NCBI GenBank assembly: GCA_009694095.1
Contig: SHVV01000007.1
Coordinates: 1-36,278 of the forward strand
Source: Alphaproteobacteria bacterium
GTDB taxonomy: Bacteria > Pseudomonadota > Alphaproteobacteria > SHVV01
Length of the DNA stretch: 36,278 bases
Reading direction: 5' to 3'
Positions 13,334 through 23,145 of this stretch are shown one piece after another; the stretch's first letter is position 1, and every line of letters begins with the position of its first letter. The notes below the pieces were generated by a model, which saw only the letters and a program-made list of their open reading frames with translations, did not search any database and was not told where the DNA came from. The position numbers were made by a program, and so were the translations under genes.

Positions 13334-14950
13334 TCAGCCGCCTTCGAGCCGCAACGCGATAAAGCGGAGGTCGTCGCCGCTCTGTACCAGGAGAAGAACC
13401 GATTTCCGTTTCGCGTCCTGGATCTTCTTGACCTTATCGGCGACTTCAGCCGGCGCACCGACCTCTTCCTGACCGACCTCAACGATGATATCGCCCGGCT
13501 TCAAGCCCTTTTCCGCCGCCGGTGTATCCTTGTTCACCTCGGTGACGACCACGCCGCGAGCGCCGTCAGGAAGATTGAATCGTTGCTTGGTTTCGGGGTT
13601 GATCGCCGACAGCGTCAATCCGAGCGTTGCCAACGTTTCGCTCTTCCCGACCGGCGGCTTCGGATCGACCGACGCGACTTTCTGTTCGTCTTCCGGCAAC
13701 TCGCCGACTTTGACTTCGAACGTCATAGACTTGCCTTTTCGCCAAACGCCAACTTTGACCGGCTTGCCGATCTTGGTTTCAGCGACGAGGCGCGGAAGAC
13801 GGCGCATATCCTTCACGTCCTTGCCATCGAAGGTCAGCACGATGTCGCCGGCCTCGATTCCGGCCTTCTTCGCCGGACCATCGCCGGCGACGCCGGCAAT
13901 CAGCGCGCCGCGCGTTTCGCCAAGACTAAGGCTCTCGGCGATCTCATCGGTCACCGTCTGAATGCGGACGCCGAGCCAACCGCGCCTGGGCTTGCCATAC
14001 TCAAGCAGCTGTTCGATCACGGGGCGGGCCAACCCCGCCGGGATGGCAAACCCAAGTCCGACGCTGCCACCGGACGGCGAGAAGATCGCCGTATTGATGC
14101 CGATCACTTCACCATCGTTGTTGAACATCGGACCGCCGGAATTGCCCCGGTTGATCGACGCATCCGTTTGCAGGAAATCATCGTACGGGCCGGCGTTGAT
14201 GTTGCGGCCGCGCGCCGAGAGAATGCCGACCGTAACGGTGCCGCCGAGGTTGAACGGATTGCCGATCGCGATGACCCAATCGCCGACCCGCGTCTTGTCC
14301 GAATCGCCCCACTTGATCGCCGGAAGTTTGCGTTCGGTCTTAAGCCGCAGTACGGCCAAGTCGGTCTTCGTGTCGCGTGCGATGATCGTCGCTTCCACGG
14401 TGGTGTCGTCGTGAAGGGTCACCCGAATCTCGTCAGCTTCGGCGATAACGTGATTGTTGGTCACGACGATGCCGCTCGAATCAATAATAAATCCCGAGCC
14501 TACCGACGTGGAGCGTCGCCCCGAAGGCCGATCGCCGCTGCCGCGTTCTCGTTCCTGGCGCTCGAAAAAGTCGCGGAAAAATTCCTCGAACGGCGATCCG
14601 GGCGGAAATTGCGGAGTTGGGATGGCCTCGCGCGGGTTCTGACTGCGCCGAGCGGTCTGCTGCGGTGCGGAGGTGGTCGAGATGTTGACAACCATCGGCA
14701 GCAATTTTTCCGCGAGATCGGCAAAACTTTCGAGCGCCGACGCGCGCGAGGGTTTGGCTGCCGGAGCGGGTCGCGAGGTTTGCGCTTCGCTTGCGAGCGG
14801 CAGGGTAAGCGTGAGCGCGAGCGCAGCGGCACCTAGCCAGATTCCAGCCGCGCTCTTTCGCCCGGCGCACATGGCCACGGGCCGGCCGGCGTTTTGTCCA
14901 ATCCTACCGCTCATGGGGGTCAGCTCCGTGGCCGTCGATCTCGTGTCCAT
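13334..14950 (-). CDS. degP: Periplasmic serine protease/chaperone, DegP/HtrA family (Do)
   Basis: A 538-residue envelope protease that degrades or refolds misfolded exported proteins. A signal peptide lies in residues about 31-56 (GIWLGAAALALTLTLPLASEA), preceded by a long charged N-terminus. The trypsin-like domain has the triad H167 (TNNHV), D197 (TDLAVL) and S271 (GNSGGP), and two PDZ domains follow (about 325-420 and 435-535). The start ATG 14950 has AAGG six bases upstream. Inner Met13 or Met27 would give a shorter, more standard leader and cannot be excluded. It lies downstream of hflK-hflC-DUF2065 with a 134-bp gap, so it may have its own promoter. Confidence 0.96.
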   Translation of the reverse strand: MDTRSTATELTPMSGRIGQNAGRPVAMCAGRKSAAGIWLGAAALALTLTLPLASEAQTSRPAPAAKPSRASALESFADLAEKLLPMVVNISTTSAPQQTARRSQNPREAIPTPQFPPGSPFEEFFRDFFERQERERGSGDRPSGRRSTSVGSGFIIDSSGIVVTNNHVIAEADEIRVTLHDDTTVEATIIARDTKTDLAVLRLKTERKLPAIKWGDSDKTRVGDWVIAIGNPFNLGGTVTVGILSARGRNINAGPYDDFLQTDASINRGNSGGPMFNNDGEVIGINTAIFSPSGGSVGLGFAIPAGLARPVIEQLLEYGKPRRGWLGVRIQTVTDEIAESLSLGETRGALIAGVAGDGPAKKAGIEAGDIVLTFDGKDVKDMRRLPRLVAETKIGKPVKVGVWRKGKSMTFEVKVGELPEDEQKVASVDPKPPVGKSETLATLGLTLSAINPETKQRFNLPDGARGVVVTEVNKDTPAAEKGLKPGDIIVEVGQEEVGAPAEVADKVKKIQDAKRKSVLLLVQSGDDLRFIALRLEGG

Positions 14951-15277: not shown

Positions 15278-16168
15278 TCACTTGGGGTTCGTGGCGCCTG
15301 GGAGGCGTCCCCTGAGGTCATTGAAATAGCGGAAAAATTCCGTATCGGGGTTCAGGATCATCGTGGTGTCGCCGCCGCCCAGCGCTTCGGCGTAAGCCTG
15401 CATTGAGCGATAGAACGCGAAGAATTCCGGGTCCTTTCCGTACGCCTCGGCAAAGATCCGGTTCCGTTCGCCGTCGCCTTCGCCGCGCAAGATCTGCGCC
15501 TTGCGGTGCGCCTCGGCTAGAAGGACCGTCTTCCCTCGATCGGCGTTAGCGCGGATCAGTTGAGCTTGTTCCGCCCCTTGTGCGCGAAATTCTTTCGCCT
15601 CGCGTTCGCGCTCGGCCTTCATGCGTCCATAGATCGCTTGAGCGTTGGCATCGGGCAGATCGGCGCGCTTGATTCGAACATCGACGACGTTGATGCCGAA
15701 TTCCTTGGCCTCGCGGTTGACGAGTTCAGCGGTTTGACGCATCAGCTTGCTGCGCTCGGCCGAAAGAACGGCCGAGAGCGGCACCTCGCCCAAGACCGAT
15801 CGCATGCTGGAGTTGAGCATGGCGGCCAACCGCGATCGGGCGCCGAACTCGTTGCCCACGGCCTGATAAAACTTCAGCGGGTCGACGATCTGGTAACGCA
15901 GGAACGCGTCGACGACGAGCCGTTTCTGGTCGGAAGCGATGATTTCTTCGGCGACTCCGTCATAGATCAGAACGCGTTTGTCGAACGAAACGACGTTCTG
16001 GATTAACGGGATCTTGGCGTACAACCCCGGCTCTTTAATGGTGCGCTTGGGCTCGCCAAATTGGAGGACCAGGACCTGCTCCGTTTGCTGGACCGTAAAA
16101 AAGGTCGACATGAGAGCGATGGCCGCGACGACGACCACGCCGACAGCGATGACGAGAACTCGGTTCAT
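15278..16168 (-). CDS. hflC: FtsH modulator HflC
   Basis: A 296-residue SPFH/prohibitin-family membrane protein that with HflK forms a large cage controlling the FtsH protease. One N-terminal membrane helix (about 4-24) precedes the SPFH domain (QQTEQVLVLQFGEPKRTIKEPGLYAKIPLIQNVVSFDKR) and a helical coiled-coil region rich in A/E/R. The start used is the ATG at 16168, whose A is the last base of the hflK TGA (TGATG). A GTG one codon earlier is possible. The one-base overlap means coupled translation with hflK. Confidence 0.96.
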   Translation of the reverse strand: MNRVLVIAVGVVVVAAIALMSTFFTVQQTEQVLVLQFGEPKRTIKEPGLYAKIPLIQNVVSFDKRVLIYDGVAEEIIASDQKRLVVDAFLRYQIVDPLKFYQAVGNEFGARSRLAAMLNSSMRSVLGEVPLSAVLSAERSKLMRQTAELVNREAKEFGINVVDVRIKRADLPDANAQAIYGRMKAEREREAKEFRAQGAEQAQLIRANADRGKTVLLAEAHRKAQILRGEGDGERNRIFAEAYGKDPEFFAFYRSMQAYAEALGGGDTTMILNPDTEFFRYFNDLRGRLPGATNPK

Positions 16169-17238
16169 CACTTGCTCTCCTTCTTGCGTTGGAGTTCCGG
16201 CAGCGGCAGGTAGGGCACAACGCCACTGCCCCCGGGAGACGGGTCGACCAACACTTTCTGCGAGCTGCGCAGGACCTTCTCCATCGTTTCGATATAAATG
16301 CGACGCTGCGTCACCTCCTTGGCGCGCAGGTACTGGGTGTAAACGGCGAGAAAACGTCGTGCATCGCCGTCGGCTCGCAACTCGGTTTCTTGCTTGTACG
16401 CCAGAGCATCCTGGAGCATTTGTTCGCTCTCGCCGCGCGCGCGCGGGATGATGTCGTTTGCATACGACTCGGCCTCGTTTTTCTGGCGTTCGAGGTCGGC
16501 GCGCGCCCGCTGTACATCGCGGAATGCATCGATCACCGCGTTCGGCGGATCGACCTTTTGAAGCTTGACTTCGGTAATCTGGATGCCGGCCTTGTAGCTA
16601 TCGAGGATTTGTTGCGCCAGGGTTCGAACATCAGTCTGAATCTCCGAGCGTCCCTCGGTCACGGCGCGCTGAAACAGCGTCTTGCCGATAACCTCGCGCA
16701 TGGCGCTTTCGGCGACCATTTTTACGTTCGCGTCCGGCTGGGCGATGTTGAATAGATATTGTCCGGCGTCCCTGATGATCCAAAATACGGTAAAGTCGAC
16801 GTCGACGATGTTCTCGTCGCCCGTCAGCATTAAGCTTTCCTCGGCGACATCGCGGGCCCCCGAACCACGACCCGACTCGACCGCGCCACGAAACCCGATG
16901 TCCACGCGATTGACCCGAGTGACCTTCGGCGTTTCGACTGTTTCGATCGGCGTGGGCAAGTGGTAGTTAAGTCCCGGCATTGTCGTTTCGACCCACTTGC
17001 CGAATCGCAGAACAACGCCTTGCTCGTCAGTGCCGACGCGGTAAAACCCGCTGCCGATCCAGACCACGGCGAGCACCAAGACGATCAAGACGAGCATCCG
17101 CTTCGAACCGCCGCCGCCCGGCAGTATGCCGCGGAAGCGATCTTGGCCGCGGCGCAAAAGATCTTCGAGATTCGGGGGTTGCGGCCCTCGCGGACCTTGT
17201 CCCCACGGACCACCACCACCTTGTTGGTTCCACGGCAT
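16168..17238 (-). CDS. hflK: FtsH modulator HflK
   Basis: A 356-residue SPFH-family partner of HflC. It has the typical Gly/Pro-rich cytoplasmic N-terminus starting MPWNQQGGGGPWGQG, a membrane helix at about 48-64, the SPFH domain (YRVGTDEQGVVLRFGKWVETTMPGLNYHLP) and a long helical C-terminal part (DLERQKNEAESYANDIIPRA). Chosen start: ATG 17238, which begins exactly at the family's MPWN sequence; upstream in-frame sequence is not family-like. It is the first gene of hflK-hflC-DUF2065(-degP), with its own promoter, divergent from mrp. Confidence 0.97.
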   Translation of the reverse strand: MPWNQQGGGGPWGQGPRGPQPPNLEDLLRRGQDRFRGILPGGGGSKRMLVLIVLVLAVVWIGSGFYRVGTDEQGVVLRFGKWVETTMPGLNYHLPTPIETVETPKVTRVNRVDIGFRGAVESGRGSGARDVAEESLMLTGDENIVDVDFTVFWIIRDAGQYLFNIAQPDANVKMVAESAMREVIGKTLFQRAVTEGRSEIQTDVRTLAQQILDSYKAGIQITEVKLQKVDPPNAVIDAFRDVQRARADLERQKNEAESYANDIIPRARGESEQMLQDALAYKQETELRADGDARRFLAVYTQYLRAKEVTQRRIYIETMEKVLRSSQKVLVDPSPGGSGVVPYLPLPELQRKKESK

Positions 17239-17298
17239 GATCAATCCCAGAGTGTTGATACCGGCGCCTCCGGCGGGTTTCTTTTGCCGGTGCGCCAG

Positions 17299-17327
17299 TT
17301 TATATGACACTGATACCGCACACGCAA
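17299..17327 (-). promoter_or_regulatory. Promoter of hflK operon
   Basis: Minus strand TTGCGT (17327-17322), 17-bp spacer, TATAAA (17304-17299), about 60 bp before the hflK ATG. Good -10 match. A CAACCG...CGGTTG inverted repeat lies just upstream, near 17329-17350, in the divergent region shared with mrp and may be an operator; that is inference. Confidence 0.55.
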
Positions 17328-18920: not shown

Positions 18921-19859
18921 TCAGTCCTCTCGCCCCAAGCTCTGCATTAGCTCGCGCCACTCGCGCTTCGAGAGGCCGCTCTCTTCCTGCATCACGGTCT
19001 CGCCGGCGAGCAGACGCTTCACGATAGCCAACCCCTTGGTCGAGATATGAGCGCCGCCCATGCCGTACTCGGTGAACGCGGCGTGCGTCATCGGCACCCA
19101 GCGTTTGACCGTATCCAACATTGCGTCGGCGTAAACGCGGATTTCAAACTGTGCGTGCGGATCGGCGCGCAACGAAAGAAAACCGAGAAGGTTGTGTAGG
19201 TCGGTTTTCCAATACCACTGCGTATAGAAATTGAGCGAAAGGTTCATTCGAGCGAGTTCGCGCGCGAGTCCTTTGCGCGCGGGGTCGAGCACTCTTCCCG
19301 ACTCGTCCTCGTTCAGCATTTCGGCGTAATGCGCGTAGAGCTGCTCAGAATCGTCTTTGAGTAGCTCGAACACATGCCTCGCTTCCGCTCCTTCGAGTGT
19401 GTCGCCGCGGCCCTGTCGGTTGCCGCGCGCTTGAGCTCCGAGCTGCTCCGGCGCCGGTATGTAAAACTCGTTGTCGAGGATCGAGTAGCGCGCCGAGTAT
19501 TCGTTCACGTTGGCGGTGCGATGGCGAATCCACTGCCGGGCCACGAAAATCGGCAGCTTCACGTGGTATTTGATTTCGCACATTTCAAAGGGCGTCGTAT
19601 GCCGGTGCCGCATCAAGTAGTTGATGAGCCCCTGATCTTCGGAGACGCGCTTAGTGCCGCGGCCGTAGGACACCCGCGCCGCTTGGACCACGGCACCGTC
19701 ATCGCCCATGTAGTCGATGACCCGGATCAAGCCATGATCGAGAATCGGGATCGGCTGATAAAGGATTTTTTCAAGCGCTAAAACCGTCGCCCGTCGCGTC
19801 GTGTGGCTCTCGGCGCGGAGCGCTTCGATCTCGCGTTGTTGGTCGGGGGTCAGGGGCAT
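18921..19859 (-). CDS. thyX: Flavin-dependent thymidylate synthase ThyX
   Basis: A 312-residue FAD enzyme that methylates dUMP to dTMP using methylenetetrahydrofolate and NADPH, replacing ThyA. The ThyX signature is present as [15 protein letters not shown] (112-126), with the preceding [10 protein letters not shown] and the C-terminal [14 protein letters not shown] segment also family-typical. There is an N-terminal extension of about 40 residues before the core, common in alphaproteobacterial ThyX. The stop is followed one base later by the unknown 93-residue gene. It is divergent from ssrA. Confidence 0.97.
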
Positions 19860-19989
19860 GGCGCCAGGGGCAATGAGCTATTAAGGGGCGGCCACTTTAG
19901 TCGGCCGATTGGCCAGTGGCCAGAATAGGGTGAAAGCGTCGATTTCGCCCCGATCAACGACCCGATCCGCACGGGCCACGCCAATTCCT

Positions 19990-20017
19990 TTGAAACCAAC
20001 GTCATCTGCACTATATT
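19990..20017 (+). promoter_or_regulatory. Promoter of ssrA
   Basis: TTGAAA (19990-19995), 16-bp spacer, TATATT (20012-20017). The predicted start near 20023-20026 falls at the GTCGG-GCAA-CCGAC hairpin that would begin the tmRNA precursor. The rest of the region between thyX and this promoter (19860-19989) shows only short GGCC-rich repeats. Confidence 0.65.
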
Positions 20018-20021
20018 AGTC

Positions 20022-20104
20022 CCTGTCGGGCAACCGACTATGGCGATAAATGCAGCTCGAAATAGACGTTGCGGACCCGGGGGCAGTACCCGGCGCCTCC
20101 ACCA
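20022..20104 (+). ncRNA. tmRNA acceptor piece
   Basis: The 3' half of the tRNA-like domain, encoded first. It ends in GCGCCTCC-A-CCA (CCA at 20102-20104). The T-arm stem is CCGGG/CCCGG with loop GGCAGTA, which departs from the standard TTCRA loop. The GTCGG-GCAA-CCGAC hairpin at 20025-20038 probably forms the start of this piece. The mature 5' end is unknown. Confidence 0.85.
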
Positions 20105-20137
20105 AAAGCGCTTCAAGCTCATCGGGAGCGTTTCTGT
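20105..20137 (+). other. Excised spacer of permuted tmRNA precursor
   Basis: 33 nt between the CCA of the acceptor piece and the 5' G of the coding piece. AAGCGCT and AGCGTTT can pair (one G-U), closing the loop that tRNA-processing enzymes would remove. Confidence 0.7.
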
Positions 20138-20298
20138 GGGGGCGAACTAGGATCGACGGACGTAGTAAAAGTTCGGCTTTCGCCCGGTATGATTCCGCCG
20201 TGATGGGTCAAATATATACCTGCCAACAATAACGAGTTGGCTCTCGCGGCCTAACGGCTGGCGCGGTTCGAGGGGCACCGGGCAACAGAAGCCCCTCA
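20138..20298 (+). ncRNA. tmRNA coding piece
   Basis: Begins GGGGGCGAACTAGGATCGACGG, the conserved tmRNA 5' end. It then has a pseudoknot-like GGCTTTCGCCC region, the tag frame at 20222-20254, and a terminal helix GAGGGGC (20270-20276) with GCCCCTC (20291-20297) followed by a pyrimidine-rich tail ACTTCTTCCTCC that may end transcription. Confidence 0.88.
20222..20254 (+). other. tmRNA tag-peptide reading frame (ANNNELALAA)
   Basis: GCC resume codon, then AAC AAT AAC GAG TTG GCT CTC GCG GCC and stop TAA. With the alanine carried by tmRNA itself, the added tag would be AANNNELALAA. Length equals that of the E. coli tag (ANDENYALAA), and the ClpXP-recognised LAA end is conserved, but the D/E/Y positions differ. 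Confidence 0.9.
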
Positions 20299-20341
20299 CT
20301 TCTTCCTCCTTCCCGATAGCGACCGCACGTCACCGCACGCT

Positions 20342-20369
20342 TTTACAGCGCTGTGGCGACGGCTATGTT
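20342..20369 (+). promoter_or_regulatory. Candidate sspB promoter
   Basis: TTTACA (20342-20347), 16-bp spacer, TATGTT (20364-20369), about 80 bp before the sspB ATG and just after the end of ssrA. Moderate match; sspB could also be read through from ssrA. Confidence 0.4.
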
Positions 20370-20452
20370 CTTATGATCCGATCGCGCTATGGTCAGGGCG
20401 GAAAGACTGACGTGAGTGTAACGGTTTCACTTGGCTTAGCCGGAGCGTCGGG

Positions 20453-20962
20453 ATGAGCAAAGACCAAATGCGCTACAAGACGCTCGTCGACCAAGCGCTG
20501 CGCGGGGTCGTCAAGTCCGTGCTGGCGCAAGTCGTCGAGTCCGGGTTGCCGGGCGCCCACCACCTCTATCTGACGTTTCGGACCGACTATCCCGGCGTGA
20601 TAGCGCCCGCCCAGCTTCGGCAACTCTATCCGCAGGAGATCACGATCGTCTTGCAACATCAGTTCTGGGGTTTGACGGTCGGCGACGAGCACTTCGAGGT
20701 CACGCTTTCGTTCGGTGGCGCGCACGAGGTCCTATCGGTGCCGTACGCGGCGCTGACCGGGATCGTCGATCCGAGCGTAAAGTTCGGACTGCAATTCGAA
20801 CCTCCCGACCAGGCCGCCGAACCGCCAGCCGCCGCTGCAGCGCGCTCGCCGCAACCGGTGACGGCGCCACGCGCCAAGATGGCCGGCAACGGACTGGGTG
20901 CCGCCGAACCGGCCGCCGATTCGGAAAAGGTCGTCACGCTCGATACGTTCCGAAAGAAGTAG
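20453..20962 (+). CDS. sspB: ClpXP adaptor SspB (alphaproteobacterial type)
   Basis: A 169-residue adaptor that binds ssrA-tagged proteins and delivers them to ClpXP. The substrate-binding domain spans about 5-115 (RYKTLVDQALRGVVKSVLAQV; HHLYLTFRTDYPGV; FEVTLSFGG; LTVPY-like). A flexible Ala/Pro-rich linker of about 40 residues follows, then a short C-terminal basic peptide VVTLDTFRKK that should be the ClpX-docking tail. GGAG precedes the ATG. It stands directly downstream of ssrA, whose product makes its substrates. Confidence 0.95.
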   Translation: MSKDQMRYKTLVDQALRGVVKSVLAQVVESGLPGAHHLYLTFRTDYPGVIAPAQLRQLYPQEITIVLQHQFWGLTVGDEHFEVTLSFGGAHEVLSVPYAALTGIVDPSVKFGLQFEPPDQAAEPPAAAAARSPQPVTAPRAKMAGNGLGAAEPAADSEKVVTLDTFRKK

Positions 20963-21039: not shown

Positions 21040-21672
21040 ATGCTCCCCGTCGATTGGCCGACCCTCGGCGTGTATTCGGTTACCGCATTCGCTATCGTCA
21101 TCTCGCCCGGTCCGGATACGCTTCTCATCCTGCGCTACACGCTAGCGGGCGGACGCCGGGTAGGGATTGCGACCGTCATCGGCGTGCAAATCGGAATCGT
21201 CGTCCACACGGCGGCGGCGATCGTTGGGCTCGCTTTGCTGATCGTCTCGCTTCCCATGGTCTTTAAATCCATCGCGCTCGTCGGTGCCCTCTATCTTGCG
21301 TTCCTCGGCGTACAGAGTTTTCGCGCTGGTATTTTTTCGGTCGACACCACCGTCGGCGTTTGAGTGAGCCCTGCCAAAGCGGTTCCCGACGCGTTCATCA
21401 CCAATATTTTCAACCCCAAGGTGATTTTGCTGTTTATCGCCTTGATGCCGCAGTTCGTTCGACCCGGGAAAGGCGATGTGCCGTGGCAGCTTGCGACGCT
21501 TGGCGCGACTTTGTTCGTCATCAACGTCGCGTGGCACCTGCTGTTGGTCGCGGCCGCCGAAACGGCACGGCTCTGGCTCGACCGCCCTTCGGTACAGCGG
21601 GCGCTCTCCTGGGGTACTGGGGCGATCTTGTTCGGCTTCGCGGCTCTTTTGATCGTCGATTACGTCATCTAG
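21040..21672 (+). pseudogene. LysE/RhtB-family amino-acid exporter with in-frame TGA
   Basis: The two halves (107 and 102 residues) are in the same frame and together make one normal-length LysE/RhtB transporter of about 209 residues. The first half has the family start VYSVTAFAIVISPGPDTLLILRYTLAGGRRVG and three membrane helices. The second has AFITNIFNPKVILLFIALMPQFV and the remaining helices. A single TGA at 21361-21363 separates them, directly followed by GTG, in the cytoplasmic loop after helix 3. Either a recent nonsense mutation, a sequencing error, or less likely re-initiation at the GTG. No strong ribosome binding site is seen at either start. Confidence 0.8.
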
Positions 21673-21689: not shown

Positions 21690-21698
21690 TGCTAGAAT
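21690..21698 (+). promoter_or_regulatory. Candidate extended -10 promoter of fumC
   Basis: TGC-TAGAAT, an extended -10 form, 46 bp before the fumC ATG. No matching -35 is visible. Confidence 0.35.
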
Positions 21699-21744
21699 GC
21701 CGGCGCGCAGTCCGGCGTACACGTCATTTGCAGGGGGAACTTTC

Positions 21745-23145
21745 ATGGCCAAGAACGAAGCGACGCGTGTCGAGACCGACACGTTCGGACCCATCGACGT
21801 TCCCGCCGACACTTACTGGGGCGCCCAGACCCAGCGCAGCCTACAAAACTTCAAGATTGGCTGGGAGAAGATGCCGGAACCCTTGATTCGCGGCTTCGCG
21901 ATCCTCAAGCGCTCGTGCGCGATCGTAAACGTGGCGCAAGGTCAGCTGGACAAGAAAATTGCCAACGCCATCGTCCAAGCCGCCGACGACGTCATTGCGA
22001 ACAAGCTCGACGGCAACTTCCCGCTCGTCGTGTGGCAGACTGGATCCGGCACCCAGACCAACATGAACATCAACGAGGTCATCTCGAACCGTGCGATCGA
22101 GATCATGGGCGGCACGATGGGTTCGAAGAAGCCGGTCCACCCGAACGACCACGTCAATCGCGGCCAATCGTCGAACGATTCATTTCCGACCGCCATGCAC
22201 ATCTCCGCCGGCGAAGAGTCGGCGAATCGTCTGTTGCCGGCGCTCGAATATCTACACAAGGGTCTCGCCGGCAAAGCGCGGGCCTGGTCCAAGATCATCA
22301 AAATCGGTCGCACCCACACCCAGGACGCGACGCCTCTGACGCTTGGTCAGGAGTTCGGCGGCTACGCCCACCAAATCGCTATGGGTATCCGCCGAGTCAA
22401 GGCGGCGCTTCCCCGGGTCTACGAACTGGCCCAAGGCGGAACCGCGGTCGGGACCGGTCTCAACACGAAGAAAGGGTTCGACCGTCGGATTGCCGCCGAG
22501 GTCAAGCGTTACACCGGGCTGCCATTCGTGACCGCACCCAACAAATTCGAGGCGCTCGCTTCGCATGACGCGTTGGTCGAACTGTCGGGCGCGCTCAACG
22601 TTCTGGCGACCAGCCTGATGAAAATCGCGAACGACATCCGCTTCCTCGGCTCGGGCCCGCGATCGGGCTTAGGCGAACTGATCCTGCCGGAGAACGAACC
22701 GGGCTCATCGATCATGCCGGGCAAAGTCAATCCAACTCAATGCGAAGCGTTGACCATGGTGTGCGCGCAGGTCATGGGCAACCATACCGCCGTTACGATC
22801 GCCGGTTCGAACGGCCACTTCGAACTCAACGTGTTCAAGCCGGTCATCATCTACAACGTCCTGCAATCGATCCGCTTGATCGCCGACGCTTGTGTGTCGT
22901 TCCAAGATAACTGCATTGCCGGAACCGAACCCAACAAGCGTCGAATCGCCGAGTTGATGGCCCAATCGCTGATGCTGGTGACGGCGCTCGCACCCTACAT
23001 CGGCTACGACAATGCAGCGAAGATCGCGAAAACTGCGCACAAGGACGGCACCACGCTGCTGGAGGCGGCCGAGAAACTCAAACTCGCCACCGCGAGCGAT
23101 TTCAAGAAGTGGGTCCGGCCCGAGCGCATGATTGGGCCCGAATGA
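21745..23145 (+). CDS. fumC: Fumarate hydratase class II
   Basis: A 466-residue oxygen-stable TCA-cycle enzyme of the fumarase/aspartase superfamily, interconverting fumarate and malate. Substrate motifs are visible: [13 protein letters not shown] (100-112), the [12 protein letters not shown] region with catalytic H191, and the flexible signature loop G320[10 protein letters not shown]. The C-terminal FumC domain ([23 protein letters not shown]) distinguishes it from argininosuccinate lyase. Start: ATG 21745 preceded by AGGGGGA; the frame is open 16 codons further up without a ribosome binding site. Confidence 0.98.

Follow-up and report, generated by a model that had tools for sequence, protein, structure and literature searches.

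A permuted two-piece tmRNA gene directly upstream of the sspB adaptor gene in an alphaproteobacterial contig, and the distribution of the pair across the class

Genes and features of the ssrA-sspB locus

The window analysed here, a 36,278-nucleotide stretch of contig SHVV01000007.1 from an alphaproteobacterium (assembly GCA_009694095.1), carries a gene for a permuted tmRNA (ssrA) followed on the same strand by a gene for an alpha-type SspB adaptor (sspB). The features of the locus and its flanking genes, in window positions, are as follows.

18921-19859, minus strand: thyX, FAD-dependent thymidylate synthase, divergent neighbour of ssrA (TIGR02170, 198.5 bits)
19988-20017, plus strand: ssrA promoter-like site CTTTGAA-N16-CTATATT (from the sequence; 10/12 consensus match)
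20023-20104, plus strand: acceptor (tRNA-like) tmRNA piece with encoded CCA at 20102-20104 (Rfam alignment; 5' end predicted)
20105-20137, plus strand: 33-nt intervening segment between CCA and GGGGGCG, presumably removed in precursor processing
20138-20144, plus strand: 5' acceptor strand GGGGGCG (from the sequence)
20138-20300, plus strand: coding (mRNA-like) tmRNA piece (Rfam alpha_tmRNA alignment to 20300)
20222-20254, plus strand: tag reading frame ANNNELALAA and stop (ARAGORN and sequence)
20270-20297, plus strand: hairpin closing the 3' end of the coding piece, stem GAGGGGC...GCCCCTC and loop GGGCAACAGAA (from the sequence)
20342-20369, plus strand: promoter-like site before sspB, TTTACA-N16-TATGTT (9/12 consensus match)
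20453-20962, plus strand: sspB, alpha-type SspB adaptor for ClpXP, 169 aa (Pfam and PDB matches)
21697-23145, plus strand: fumC, class II fumarase, downstream (TIGR00979, 765.7 bits)

The Rfam model alpha_tmRNA (RF01849, gathering cut-off 50 bits) matches positions 19985-20300 of the plus strand over its full length (model positions 1-355) with 234 bits and an E-value of 7.7e-67, the tmRNA_permuted model matches 20042-20254 with 144 bits, and ARAGORN reports a permuted tmRNA with the tag ANNNELALAA. The initial annotation of this DNA had named the RNA from its permuted order, its G3-U70 pair, the GGATCGACGG hallmark and the tag frame, with the Rfam alpha-tmRNA model as the proposed check; the model match bears this out, and each of the four marks is seen in the sequence. 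The CCA-ended acceptor part comes first, followed by the 5' acceptor strand and then the tag, as read from the Rfam alignment and the sequence; the alanine identity pair G3-U70 is the third, G-U pair of GGGGGCG with CGCCUCC; GGATCGACGG is present; and the tag frame has the hydrophobic-Ala-Ala end. The terminal hairpin is kept at the equivalent place in 84 loci, and its stem is seen in the predicted RNA fold of the window region. An unusually stable hairpin region was considered and rejected, its stability in the window fold not being higher than that of shuffled sequences (z -0.66). The tmRNA of the window would be processed into two RNA pieces: in Sinorhizobium meliloti, mapping gave stable pieces of 214 and 82 nt along with a precursor that is unstable (PMC2873474), and the predicted ends of the acceptor piece in the window give the same length of 82 nt.

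A detail absent from the initial annotation is that the tag begins with ANNN where nearly all relatives have ANDN. The third tag codon (20228-20230) is AAT (Asn) in the window, GAT in the sister genome G020, whose tag ANDNELALAA is one base apart, and encodes Asp in nearly all relatives; this single base is either a real change or an assembly error. Together with the 63% completeness of the assembly, such an unusual tag start might suggest that the tmRNA called here is a decayed or additional copy, the functional ssrA lying outside the assembled sequence. We regard this explanation as largely refuted and extremely improbable, given the full-length 234-bit match, the intact tag frame, the near-identity to the sister's single ssrA at the equivalent position, and single copies being the rule across the class sample. 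Neither a second ssrA, which the initial annotation had named along with a missing covariance match as grounds against its call, nor a second sspB was found in the 63% complete assembly of the source genome.

The sspB reading frame matches PF04386 with 145.6 bits (cut-off 27; E 1.6e-42), and the closest solved structures of its product are those of Caulobacter SspB (2qas and 2qaz, E 3e-36; also 2nys). Its ATG at 20453 lies 152 nt past the tmRNA end on the same strand, so that both the adjacency of the two genes and the distance of about 150 bp given by the initial annotation hold. Of the 35 alignment columns that at least 85% of 84 SspB sequences share, the protein agrees in 34 and differs in one, residue 104, which is Ile in the window and Phe in 95% of relatives. 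This one differing conserved column was considered as a compensating change for the ANNN tag and set aside as too little to claim. The C-terminal tail KVVTLDTFRKK resembles that of the relatives, presumed to contact ClpX, and an LDxFR motif stands at the C-terminus of 67 of the 84 aligned SspB proteins, the window protein included. The window SspB is predicted to bind the tmRNA tag and to deliver it to ClpXP. As a whole, the window locus is an ordinary, well-formed member of known families.

Distribution of the pair and its gene order

How widespread the arrangement is had been left as a question by the initial annotation, which suggested a survey of ssrA-sspB distances. We looked for the two genes in 114 genomes of the class, roughly one from each family. 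Of the 105 that have both, 79 carry ssrA immediately before sspB, in the same orientation and within 1.5 kb (75 of 105 within 500 nt), which makes this the arrangement of most of the class. In two more genomes (G065 and G106) the two genes fall at contig ends in a way that agrees with the arrangement, and five carry other genes between ssrA and sspB, over 2-7.5 kb. Among 80 named relatives, mostly of Rhodospirillales or Rhizobiales type, ssrA lies within 3 kb upstream of sspB in at least 71 (66 found by motif and 5 by ARAGORN), several of the remaining ones having no upstream sequence. On these counts the arrangement is old and class-wide, and no peculiarity of the source genome. The available part of the open-licence literature yielded no earlier report of the linkage, and we do not claim that it is unreported.

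The genes around the pair are also partly conserved. In 52 of 84 loci the divergent neighbour of ssrA is a thymidylate synthase gene (thyX in 34, thyA in 18, never both), and fumC lies downstream of sspB in 26 of 84; the old cluster consists of mrp, thymidylate synthase, ssrA, sspB and fumC, a block that has been partly kept. We know of no functional tie between thyX or thyA and ssrA, and since one or the other stands beside ssrA in 52 loci, part of the linkage is plain synteny. The position of sspB might likewise be nothing but inherited gene order, without functional meaning, in a slowly rearranging block whose genes each have their own promoter. The frequent retention of mrp, thyX or thyA, and fumC nearby is what such a history would leave behind, and we take it as a serious possibility, albeit one that falls short of being probable. 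It does not account well for the difference in retention between neighbours: among the 65 families with ssrA, sspB and thyX, ssrA and sspB are adjacent in 54 and thyX and ssrA in 40, with 19 against 5 discordant families (exact p 0.007, families being taken as independent). This greater retention of ssrA-sspB than of thyX-ssrA favours selection for the pair.

Some further features of the neighbourhood deserve mention in their own right. In the slot divergent from ssrA (e.g. L065, L073 and L305), thyX and thyA, which encode unrelated thymidylate synthases, seem to stand in for one another. A LysE-type transporter gene of the window (21040-21672, plus strand) is broken in two by an in-frame TGA codon (21361-21363); its counterpart in the sister genome is a single frame, open over 233 codons. 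Near ssrA-sspB, in the region of 15278-17310 and 13334-14950 (both minus strand), lie genes for two Band 7 (SPFH) proteins, of which the longer has an N-terminal HflK domain, and for a DegP-type trypsin/PDZ protease, so that several protein quality control genes share the region.

Transcription of the pair and co-variation of tag and adaptor

Separate promoter-like sequences for the two genes, as described in the initial annotation, are indeed present in the window, with 10/12 matches before ssrA and 9/12 before sspB against 0.3 such sites expected by chance in the region. The first of them is widely shared, CTTTAAA-N16-CTATATT standing before ssrA in 80 of 84 loci across the class. With a matrix built from the ssrA promoters, these promoters reach a mean score of 17 and the ssrA-sspB spacers score like their shuffles (1.4 vs 0.65, with 5 of 76 at p<=0.05), and a class-wide separate promoter of sspB was rejected on these chance-level scores. 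Moreover, in 30 of 79 families no more than 50 nt separate the sspB start codon from the point where the tmRNA model match ends, and in 16 of these no more than 30 nt; as start codons were chosen by rule, single values can be off. Because so many start codons are this close and no ssrA-type promoter rises above chance in the spacers class-wide, read-through from the ssrA promoter probably accounts for most, or at least part, of sspB expression in the class. The idea of co-regulation raised in the initial annotation thus gains comparative support from same-strand adjacency in most families and from spacers often too short for a promoter.

The window itself is less typical, and lends something to the view that the pair is only inherited gene order with one promoter per gene: it has two promoter-like sites, and the one at 20342-20369 is the best-scoring of the spacers scored (18.3 vs a shuffle mean of 4.9). 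A T-run after the terminal hairpin, enriched across the class (24 of 84 families vs 5.9 expected), points the same way. Partial termination is therefore likely in some lineages, where ssrA can end at a terminator, and we do not claim universal read-through. On the other side stand the class spacers, at chance for promoters and in 30 of 79 families too short for one, and the sister genome G020, whose aligned spacer does not contain the window's promoter-like site. Among the 30 short spacers (50 nt or less), 19 have no T-run after the hairpin. We infer that read-through is the common mode and that local promoters were gained in some lineages; the window would be an exception with a promoter-like site of its own in the spacer, and a second promoter may contribute to its sspB. 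Judged by the spacer scores, separate promoters such as those of the window are not the rule elsewhere in the class.

The tag and the presence of the adaptor are associated. By manual count, an N-x-N element, usually within ANDN, occurs in 102 of 104 readable tags from SspB-bearing genomes, the exceptions being G004 and G092; about one in five permuted tags escaped ARAGORN or were misread by it, and these were taken by pattern or by eye. The Asp can vary (ANNN in the window, ANQN in L208), and long unusual tags keep N-x-N, some of them twice (for example ANDNVAFVAANDNTVVEVAVAA). None of the genomes searched in two orders (38 in the first, 6 in the second) has SspB, and the tags of these orders (29 and 7 read) all lack N-x-N, the second Asn being absent (ANDE, ANES, ANNK, ANDD, AKSD and others). 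There, fumC follows ssrA directly in 6 of 30 loci of the first order and in all 5 genomes checked of the second, which means that sspB is missing from its usual place. A third SspB-less lineage, a family, has ANDN in 7 of 10 tags and ANNN in 1 of 10. Counted over the three lineages without SspB in the class sample, the association has a Fisher p of 0.003, phylogeny being ignored. Tag and adaptor appear to change together, N-x-N and sspB sharing one fate, and the loss of N-x-N in orders without SspB gives comparative support to the co-evolution that the initial annotation had suggested as a meaning of the linkage.

The same association could stem from shared ancestry and streamlining, if sspB was lost from small genomes and short tags arose there separately. 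The two SspB-less orders do have small genomes (1.0-1.5 Mb), and the SspB-less family has kept ANDN in most of its tags. We nonetheless find this account rather unlikely, as several SspB-bearing families with small genomes (G057, G087, G110 and G113 among them) keep N-x-N in long odd tags, and as the Asn codons AAT and AAC are favoured, not disfavoured, in AT-rich genomes.

Two observations on individual tags may be added. L130 (G094), L205 and L172 (G070) have long tags in which N-x-N occurs two or three times, a pattern that looks like a repetition of SspB sites. Genome G157 has two ssrA genes (L314 and L332), one with the tag ANESYALAA typical of an SspB-less order, by contamination or transfer.

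Proposed working of the locus and comparison with known systems

Taken together, the locus is, with high probability, a normal alphaproteobacterial ssrA locus, in which an alpha-type sspB comes directly after a permuted tmRNA gene in the same orientation and, in the class at large, is most likely transcribed at least partly by read-through. A housekeeping promoter would transcribe the tmRNA precursor, from which tRNA-processing enzymes would excise the segment between the CCA and the 5' acceptor strand to give the acceptor and coding pieces. The tmRNA would then rescue stalled ribosomes and add the tag, SspB would bind the N-x-N part of it, and the C-terminal tail of SspB would bring the tagged proteins to ClpXP. 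Across the class, expression of sspB would come at least in part from the ssrA promoter, with a possible contribution from the second promoter in the window genome.

A stronger reading, to which we give an even chance, is that the tmRNA precursor serves as the leader of the sspB mRNA and that the two amounts are coupled, one promoter serving both the template of the tag and its reader; N-x-N and sspB would accordingly be kept or lost together, and some tags would repeat N-x-N. A conserved pair of an RNA gene and a protein gene such as ssrA-sspB would be missed by gene-neighbour tools that consider proteins only. The pair also offers a natural test of tag-adaptor co-evolution, and read-through from the tmRNA gene into its partner can be checked in the ordinary RNA-seq of many genomes.

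A permuted two-piece tmRNA was reported in Caulobacter by Keiler et al. in 2000. With the alphaproteobacterial permuted tmRNA (RF01849; Caulobacter, S. meliloti) the window RNA shares the permuted order, the encoded CCA, G3-U70, the class promoter, the terminal hairpin with its CAACAGAA loop and the tag end LAA, whereas its tag is short, with 10 residues, and has ANNN instead of ANDN. At the S. meliloti ssrA locus (SMc01449< ssrA> SMc01450>; PMC2573895, Table 3), as in the window, a divergent gene lies upstream and a same-strand gene downstream; the accessible part of that paper holds no discussion of these neighbours that we could find. The window SspB belongs to the same family as Caulobacter crescentus SspB (2qas, 2qaz) over residues 3-126 and also carries the C-terminal LDxFR motif; a difference is Ile104, at the position that is Phe in most relatives. 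In Escherichia coli, ssrA follows smpB and sspB follows sspA. There, too, the tmRNA gene lies beside a gene of the same pathway and SspB serves ClpXP, but in the window it is the tmRNA and SspB genes themselves that adjoin each other.
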